A stretch of 64,000 bases of DNA from contig JAUYAK010000113.1 of the NCBI GenBank assembly GCA_030693515.1, positions 1 through 64,000 on the forward strand. The letters run 5' to 3'. Both the position numbers and the translations under genes were made by a program. The notes under the pieces are model-generated. The model saw only the letters and a list, made by a program, of their open reading frames with translations, searched no databases and was not told the origin of the DNA. How positions within the stretch are numbered: position 1 is the stretch's first letter; each line of letters opens with the position of its first letter. This DNA is from Opitutaceae bacterium (lineage in GTDB: Bacteria; Verrucomicrobiota; Verrucomicrobiia; Opitutales; Opitutaceae). Below, piece by piece: positions 54,868 through 56,014 of the stretch.

Positions 54868-55587
54868 TCAGGCAGTCGGGGGCGGCCCGGCGCGGAGCAG
54901 GGCGTCGAGTTCGTTGAGGCCCTCGTGGGAGCCGATCTCGTAGAAGCGCTGCGGCATTTCGTAGCCGGCGAGCTGGCCGCGCGCGCAGAGCTGCGTCTGC
55001 ACCGCCGCGAGATCGACGACGGCATCGCGGGGGAAGCCATTGAAGGCCGCGGCGCGAAACACGCCCAAGCCGTAGTCGATGTGGCGCATGGCCGGGGTGC
55101 GGTGCTTTTTGTCGTAGGCTTTGATCTCTCCGCCCGCGAATTCGACGTTGCTCGTGTCGTAGCGGCCGTGGTTCTCGAAGACGGTCATCAGGCCGAGCTT
55201 CCCGCTCCGCTGGAAAAAATCGCCGACCGCGCGGTAGTCGATCGGCAGGTAGCTGTCACCGTAGAGCACGTAGAACGCGTCGCCGAGCTTGGGCAGGGCA
55301 GCGATGAGCGCGCCGCCGGTGCCGAGGAGTTTGGGGCCGTCGAACGCGTAGTCGATCTGCACGCCCCACTTGGAGCCGTCGCCGTAGAGCTCGACGATCT
55401 TCTCGCCGAGATAGCCGACGCAAAGGACGATCTTGGTGAGGCCGTTTTTCTTCAGCAGGCGGAGCTGATGGGAGAAAAAGGGTTCGCCCGCGACCTCGAC
55501 GAGGAGCTTCGGGATTTTCTCCGTGATTGGCCGGAGACGCGTGGCCATGCCGCCTGCTAGCAATGCCACTGGAAAATCGGAAAACAT
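54868..55587 (-). CDS. hddC: Nucleotidyltransferase, heptose-1-phosphate guanylyltransferase-like
   Basis: MFSDFPVALLAGGMATRLRPITEKIPKLLVEVAGEPFFSHQLRLLKKNGLTKIVLCVGYLG; start codon lies in the repeat arm. Confidence 0.8.
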   Translation of the reverse strand: MFSDFPVALLAGGMATRLRPITEKIPKLLVEVAGEPFFSHQLRLLKKNGLTKIVLCVGYLGEKIVELYGDGSKWGVQIDYAFDGPKLLGTGGALIAALPKLGDAFYVLYGDSYLPIDYRAVGDFFQRSGKLGLMTVFENHGRYDTSNVEFAGGEIKAYDKKHRTPAMRHIDYGLGVFRAAAFNGFPRDAVVDLAAVQTQLCARGQLAGYEMPQRFYEIGSHEGLNELDALLRAGPPPTA

Positions 55588-55612
55588 GGAAAAGCGGGAA
55601 AGCGGGAAACAG
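55568..55612. repeat. Degenerate ~8-bp repeat arm (GGAAAATC/GGGAAAGC), left arm flanking the second four-helix-bundle gene
   Basis: ctggaaaatcggaaaacatggaaaagcgggaaagcgggaaacag. Confidence 0.8.
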
Positions 55613-55613
55613 T

Positions 55614-56000
55614 TCAACGGCCTTTGGCCTTGCGATTGATCGTGGTGAGAATCGCAAGGAGTTCGCGGGCTTCGGTCGCGTGCGAAACAACCTGGATTAC
55701 TTCGCCAATGTTGGACTGGCGGCAGATTTCCAGCCAGTAGTTGGTTTCAGTGGCTTCCTTTTGGGCGATGGCGGTCTTGTGGATGAAGTCATCCCGCGAT
55801 TCGGCGCGGTTCGCTTCACGGTAGTTTGCGCCGAGGGACGTTGCCGAACGCAAGAGCTGTCGGCCAATCACAGAAGTGACTTCGCCGCGTGGCAGTGAAG
55901 AGACGAATCGAACAACAGCGATCACGAAAGCGAGGGTGCGCCGTTCCAGTTCGTTTTTTCCGCCGGTGTTTTCCACTTTTCCGATTTTCCGCTTTCCCAA
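55614..56000 (-). CDS. Four helix bundle protein (S23/IVP-related, Avd-like), second copy
   Basis: ELERRTLAFVIAVVRFVSSLPRGEVTSVIGRQLLRSATSLGANYREANRAESRDDFIHKTAIAQKEATETNYWLEI; TTG start in right repeat arm, so the N-terminus MGKRKIGKVENTGGKN is repeat-encoded. Confidence 0.9.
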   Translation of the reverse strand: MGKRKIGKVENTGGKNELERRTLAFVIAVVRFVSSLPRGEVTSVIGRQLLRSATSLGANYREANRAESRDDFIHKTAIAQKEATETNYWLEICRQSNIGEVIQVVSHATEARELLAILTTINRKAKGR

Positions 56001-56014
56001 TTTTCAATCTTCAG
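55967..56014. repeat. Degenerate repeat arm, right arm inverted relative to 55568-55612
   Basis: ttttccacttttccgattttccgctttcccaattttcaatcttcag; reverse complement GGGAAAGCGGAAAATCGGAAAAGTGGAAAA matches left arm words. Confidence 0.8.

Follow-up and report, generated by a model that had tools for sequence, protein, structure and literature searches.

The analysed stretch of DNA (the window, 64,000 nucleotides) carries on its minus strand a ~440-bp insert (55569–56010) that lies between the stop codon of an hddA-like gene and the start region of an hddC-like gene. The first of these host genes (56011–56994, minus strand) codes for a GHMP kinase matching the HddA profile NF049969 at 1.8e-45, below that profile's cutoff of 600 bits, and the second (54868–55587, minus strand) for a hddC/MurU-like sugar-1-phosphate nucleotidyltransferase (PF00483, 3e-17; best NCBIfam matches MurU and HddC). 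Along the minus strand, the kinase gene is followed within 7 bp by the array AAAATTGGGAAAGCGGAAAATCGGAAAAGTGGAAAA, then by the gene of a 128-residue four-helix-bundle protein (55614–56000, minus strand, TTG start; conserved domain 55626–55943), by the inverted array GTTTCCCGCTTTCCCGCTTTTCCATGTTTTCCGATTTTCC (55610–55571) and by the hddC-like gene. The two arrays enclose the four-helix gene as arms and are built from a degenerate 8-nt word, GGAAAANN; the 5′ (upstream) arm (55969–56004, minus strand) is purine-rich on the gene strand, and the 3′ (downstream) arm (55571–55610, minus strand) is an inverted copy of its word. Both arms are present exactly as quoted in an earlier note on this DNA, and two other features reported there were recovered as well: the N terminus of the four-helix protein, (TTG)GKRKIGKVENTGGKN, is encoded by the 5′ arm, and the hddC-like gene begins within the 3′ arm (start codon at 55585–55587, read as CAT on the plus strand). 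The second element of the window (15948–16360, minus strand) is found between rmlB-like and rmlA-like genes; its arms (15948–15978 and 16330–16360) consist of the word GATGGGT, with a period of 7 as against 8 at the hddA–hddC locus. An Rfam search of the 64-kb window returned no match.

The protein encoded at 55614–56000 belongs to the TIGR02436/PF05635 four-helix bundles (S23/IVP, Avd-like), with profile matches to TIGR02436 (1.2e-23; 83.4 bits for a cutoff of 24) and PF05635 (1.4e-17; 64.3 bits for a cutoff of 33.8). Its AF2 model (pLDDT 97.9) shows four helices and has its best match in the Protein Data Bank with 2rld (TM 0.88). Further fold matches are the pentamer 2gsc and, more distantly, Avd of diversity-generating retroelements (4dwl, TM 0.77), including the complex of Avd with the retroelement reverse transcriptase (8ub7/8ub8). 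The fold is held in common with Avd; among the genes next to the four-helix gene, which are sugar-pathway genes, neither a reverse transcriptase nor a template/variable repeat was found. Profiles, AF2 model and structure matches show no recognizable nuclease or transposase fold. Values of dN/dS for the gene, mostly 0.04–0.2, point to purifying selection on the protein.

At the hddA–hddC locus itself, local alignment of one arm to the other gives a score of 20.5, compared with a mean of 10.8 for shuffled sequence, and none of 200 shuffles scores as high. The same score is attained at 0.84% of random positions in the window, that is, p∼0.01 for the single locus, and the proof of the arms is therefore carried by the family comparison. 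In a sample of 19 congeneric genomes and some order-level relatives, arms are present in ∼80 of 91 testable Opitutaceae loci, and the best period is 7 in 55 and 8 in 13 of 77 loci. Eighty named loci from GTDB genomes extend the sample to other genomes and phyla (Verrucomicrobiota, Chloroflexota, Acidobacteriota, Bacteroidota, Desulfobacterota, Planctomycetota, Armatimonadota, Nitrospirota, and beta- and gammaproteobacteria); 79 were scored for arms, 64 of them have arms at z≥4, and the period is 7 in 48 of those 64. All eight genes examined on cyanobacterial and Bacteroidota plasmids (Nostoc, Planktothrix, Dolichospermum, Pseudanabaena and Bernardetia) also have arms, several of which are perfect heptamer arrays (GTCGGAA, AATTCGC, AATTCAA, AATTCGT and CCCCAAT). 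The layout is spread over many phyla. That two purine-rich stretches of low complexity resemble each other by chance, for which the ∼0.8% of random window positions scoring as high would speak, has a negligible probability in the face of the same pattern in these two sets of homologues, each locus with its own word, and is rejected at the family level. Phage records yielded two weak matches only. On two Nostoc plasmids (L386 and L393), a four-helix gene with heptad arms adjoins transposase/TnsA-like and XisH/XisI genes.

The earlier note held that arms match within a locus and differ between loci, and this is borne out: with each arm picked independently by periodicity, similarity is 0.39 within and 0.04 between loci, a ten-fold difference. 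An initial k-mer version of the comparison was biased by choosing the arms from their mutual alignment; an alignment test of concerted evolution on fair flanks, which coding sequence confounded, gave way to the periodicity-picked arms. Absence of arms from close homologues, or a similarity at the level of shuffled sequence, had been named as outcomes that would contradict the proposal; close homologues do have arms, and their similarity lies far above background.

The elements lie sense-oriented inside operons. Their left neighbour is on the element's strand in a ratio of 84:3 and their right neighbour in a ratio of 76:9; counted by ortholog group, the figures are 34 (++) and 2 (−−). The host pathways are unrelated to one another. 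The genome to which the window belongs contains five copies of the four-helix gene, all with inverted arrays and each with another word (GATGGGT, AGAGCYC-like, GAGGGAGA-like, GGAAAANN and GGGAAGAC-like). The position directly upstream of a sugar nucleotidyltransferase, which the earlier note had pointed out for both loci, is true for the two window copies only, the other three genome copies and most homologues being located elsewhere; the association is a coincidence of two loci and not general.

Comparison of loci grouped by tblastx of their flanks shows that the two arms change together. At orthologous sites with proteins 45–65% identical, within-locus similarity is greater than similarity of the same arm between species in 33 of 36 pairs (0.46 versus 0.18), and among ortholog pairs with proteins at least 80% identical it is greater in only 3 of 20, a pattern that gradual concerted change would produce. 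Depending on the species, both arms at the rmlB–rmlA site bear GATGGGT, GGGCGAT, GAGGCTA or TTGAAGT, and the site of the L002 group bears AGAGCYC, TTGAAAG or GTTGAGA; L017 and L032, whose proteins are 76% identical, have GGAGTCA and AGAATCC, respectively. The words at the hddA–hddC site are GGAAAANN (G000, G006, and likely also G011 and G016), GGAAGAC (G008), GGAAGA (G012) and AGAAGAAATC (G018). Because a change of word between species at the same site affects both arms together, homogenisation of the arms is real; the two arms of a locus drift to new words together, while their protein stays under purifying selection.

Local homogenisation, as the earlier note proposed, is upheld by the 33 of 36 pairs; its corollary, that no copying of a fixed terminal repeat is involved, holds only in part, since near-identical proteins at different sites share a word and ORF-less hairpins are dispersed. 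Among non-orthologous sites, arm similarity is 0.68–0.77 when the proteins are at least 80% identical and ∼0.09 when they are less than 60% identical. Same-word copies with near-identical proteins at different sites include L006/L029, which reside in one genome, as well as L009 and L028/L059. As such copies keep their word at different sites, the arms travel with the gene; they move along with it and are afterwards rewritten jointly. A transposon with fixed terminal inverted repeats (a classical DNA transposon or MITE) is rejected, because orthologous copies bear different words. Inspection by eye of the compared hddA–hddC and L013 junctions gave no evident target-site duplication.

The rewriting of the repeat also reaches a host protein. 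In element-bearing species the first codons of hddC track the local arm word, so that the repeat rewrites the N terminus of the encoded enzyme, which begins with MFSDFP (as in the window gene) or MLPQVSSLP where the element is present and with M(T/I)SSDLP in element-free relatives. Over all loci, transition mismatches between the arms are skewed to A in the 5′ arm versus G in the complement of the 3′ arm, opposite to what G–U tolerance would give; the A bias of the 5′ arm perhaps results from selection for an A-rich translation start.

The element words also occur away from any four-helix gene, in ORF-less hairpins scattered at operon junctions. The 18-mer matches to GTAGYGR number 60 in G001, 130 in G002, 24 in G006 and 17 in G005, all of which have a gene of that word, and 0 in G000, G003, G007 and G010; the dispersed matches consist of a forward array, a spacer of variable length (tens of bases) and a reverse array. 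For GGRAAN3, the word of the hddA–hddC locus, there are 262 matches in G006, 175 in G008, 40 in G001, 11 in G000 and 0–7 in other relatives, and GTTGAGR has 87 in G014 and 42 in G004. Counts that include the elements' own arms, taken over relatives that are not independent, are higher in genomes with the cognate gene for three words (p=0.010, 0.0008 and 0.012), with G001, G008 and G014 as exceptions. These three genomes, incomplete drafts, hold large word populations in which no same-word gene was detected (GGRAA in G001, GTAGYGR in G008 and GTTGAGR in G014); loss of the gene, its absence from the assembly or another mobiliser are possible reasons. Few dispersed pairs exist in the genome of the window itself, where the GGAAAA word of the GGAAAANN locus has five extra sites, all at gene junctions: hairpins between adjacent genes (L354 and L355), a degenerate pair (L351), and two solo arrays immediately upstream of a start codon (L352 and L353).

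At orthologous junctions the gene and its arms are either both there or both missing, and thus behave as a single unit. The hddA–hddC junction of the sister species G003 (L102) is empty and only 5 bp long (TAG-CCCGC-ATG), and the L013 junction of G000 is likewise an empty site, of 27 bp. Elsewhere the L013 junction is occupied by ORF-less hairpins of GAGGGAGTA (G013) or CAGGAGT (G011), by GxxExxY genes (G008 and G012, and by similarity G014), or by a four-helix element with the word AGTAGCG (L013 itself, in G006, and its counterpart in G018), and the inserts run from beside the stop codon to beside the start codon. A single junction holding elements of four different words across species indicates that the words do not come from the target site; seeding of the word by the target, hinted at by the native hddC start TCTTCCGATCTTCCC, is not supported. 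At the L013 junction, G003 (L345, C243:17050–18050) has a ∼520-bp insert of another kind, in which no gene was identified and whose right array is GAGGGAAAG-like.

The GxxExxY (TIGR04256) genes of the genus (L112–L141, for example L123, L120 and L132) show the same inverted-array layout, mostly with 9–11-nt words of the CACNGAN type. A hairpin with a word of this type, GCCCACGGAAYACACGG...CCGTGTGTTCCGTGGGC, ORF-less and ∼75–85 bp long, occupies the hddA–hddC junction in G001 and G013 (L098 and L101), and its word also flanks the GxxExxY gene L123 in G001. The genus further contains RAYT-like Y1_Tnp genes (L361–L374), often of 320–390 residues and with inverted ends of the GGGGTCA type that are often long; these genes are numerous in G003, G017 and G039. 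A RAYT as the driver of the four-helix elements is rejected, as the ends of these RAYT loci lack heptads; the heptad-rich genomes G006 and G008 have a single Y1_Tnp match each.

We interpret the insert, with slightly less than even confidence, as a small selfish element that resembles REPIN/RAYT systems, is built on a non-transposase Avd-like protein and is kin to the intervening sequences (IVSs) of 23S rRNA; we infer its mobility, word binding and RNA processing. In the proposed mechanism, a sense-oriented element would fill the spacer between two operon genes, and the four-helix protein, a pentamer in solved relatives, would recognize the hairpin of its own word in ssDNA or in the transcript and assist the copying of arm-bearing hairpins to further operon junctions, much as a RAYT does for REPINs. 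A partner enzyme for the copying is likely, since the protein has no recognizable nuclease or transposase fold. Slippage within an array, and exchange between the two inverted arms by template switching or gene conversion, would keep the arms alike, and protein and word would then diverge together. Against this interpretation, neither a transposition event nor a target duplication nor binding has been seen, and the closest comparisons are between species. The large GTAGYGR population of G008 and GTTGAGR population of G014, for which no gene with exactly that word was found in these drafts, also count against it, as do the inclusion of the elements' own arms in the enrichment counts, the non-independence of the relatives, the mere five extra sites of the GGAAAA word in the window's genome and the lack of a catalytic fold in the protein.

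Several features recall REPIN/RAYT systems: a low-copy, largely vertical gene with repeats on both sides, extragenic inverted pairs that are dispersed and vary in spacer (here found mainly in relatives) and several gene–repeat pairs per genome (PMC3116915, PMC8049555). In REPIN/RAYT systems cognate gene and repeat also co-occur; here such a tendency is seen for three words, with G001, G008 and G014 as exceptions. The element differs from them by having an Avd-like four-helix bundle instead of a Y1 (IS200-like) transposase and tandem arrays of ∼7–8-nt words instead of a single REP, and the real RAYTs of the genus have other ends. The IVSs of 23S rRNA (S23p/IVP; Leptospira, Coxiella) share with it a PF05635/TIGR02436 protein, a size of ∼430–450 bp, inverted ends around the ORF and a sense orientation in a transcribed unit, and the complementary ends of the element are likewise predicted to form a stem around the ORF. 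However, the element lies between protein genes, and its arms are arrays of words common to dispersed ORF-less hairpins.

These likenesses lead to an explanation at the level of RNA, according to which the element would be transcribed with the operon, its arms would form a long stem, RNase III would excise it from the mRNA and the protein would bind or protect its own RNA, 23S rRNA IVSs being a special instance that ended up in rRNA. The shared orientation of element and operon is consistent with it, as is a predicted pairing of the two arms along ∼40 bp that encloses the ORF (MFE z −3.3). So is the Coxiella 23S IVS, which combines a protein of this family with complementary ends, excision by RNase III and, before the ORF, tandem GACAGAT heptamers whose copy number varies among strains (PMC4990558). 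However, mismatches between arms are more often of the A–C type (161) than of the G–U type (101), so that RNA pairing is not visibly under selection; 23S motifs occur in none of the fetched loci, and excision alone leaves the dispersed ORF-less copies unexplained. As a full account it is possible but rather unlikely; RNase III excision of the transcript may hold alongside the REPIN-like interpretation.

Alternatively, the arms may be passive, a different enzyme having dispersed the heptad hairpins, and the four-helix gene being a passenger trapped between two arrays. Many hairpins do lack the gene, GxxExxY genes likewise sit between arrays and RAYT genes are common in the genus. What makes this improbable is that the class of word follows the gene (7–8 nt with four-helix genes, mostly 9–11 nt with GxxExxY genes), that the available RAYTs have non-heptad ends and are nearly absent from the heptad-rich genomes, and that the four-helix protein is strongly conserved. 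Less probable still is a domesticated operon regulator, whose protein would bind the intercistronic hairpin and thereby adjust expression of the following gene, the one that starts within the arm. Elements that have stayed vertically at given junctions for long, the position of the hddC start codon and purifying selection would fit such a role, but presence is patchy, the same junction may be empty or hold an unrelated element, and the host pathways have nothing in common.

More broadly, and more tentatively than for the single element, Avd-like proteins and short-word arrays could constitute a pan-bacterial, non-transposase replicative class, in which protein and word co-diverge, the two arms undergo concerted rewriting and operon junctions receive copies of ORF-less hairpins. 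A second, parallel class would be that of the GxxExxY genes and their ∼9–11-nt words, and 23S rRNA IVSs would be one branch of the four-helix class. Parts of this picture are already published (the IVS and the heptamer arrays); no description of the class as a whole, nor any paper linking the repeats to the four-helix gene class, was found in the open-access literature. If correct, it would give a common origin to 23S rRNA IVSs, heptanucleotide repeats and many copies of 'four helix bundle protein' of unassigned role, and would suggest that the Avd fold has also served as a hairpin-recognizing protein outside retroelements. A protein–word code that can be tested on dozens of naturally occurring protein/word pairs would come with it, as would an example of an element whose two ends alter their sequence together.

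The proposed class would also explain part of the heptanucleotide repeats of cyanobacteria and Xanthomonas, GGGGATT and GGGAATC (PMC4692102), which have long lacked an explanation; TAACTGA repeats have been described too (PMC4679880). Like most arms of the class, though with a period of 8 at the hddA–hddC locus and of 7 at the rmlB–rmlA locus, the published repeats are 7-nt, tandem, intergenic and genome-specific, with 70–75 inverted pairs per Xanthomonas genome, but they were described without a link to any four-helix-bundle gene. On either side of the four-helix gene of Planktothrix stands the word CCCCAAT, which is the complement of GGGGATT as published for Nostoc (PMC4692102).
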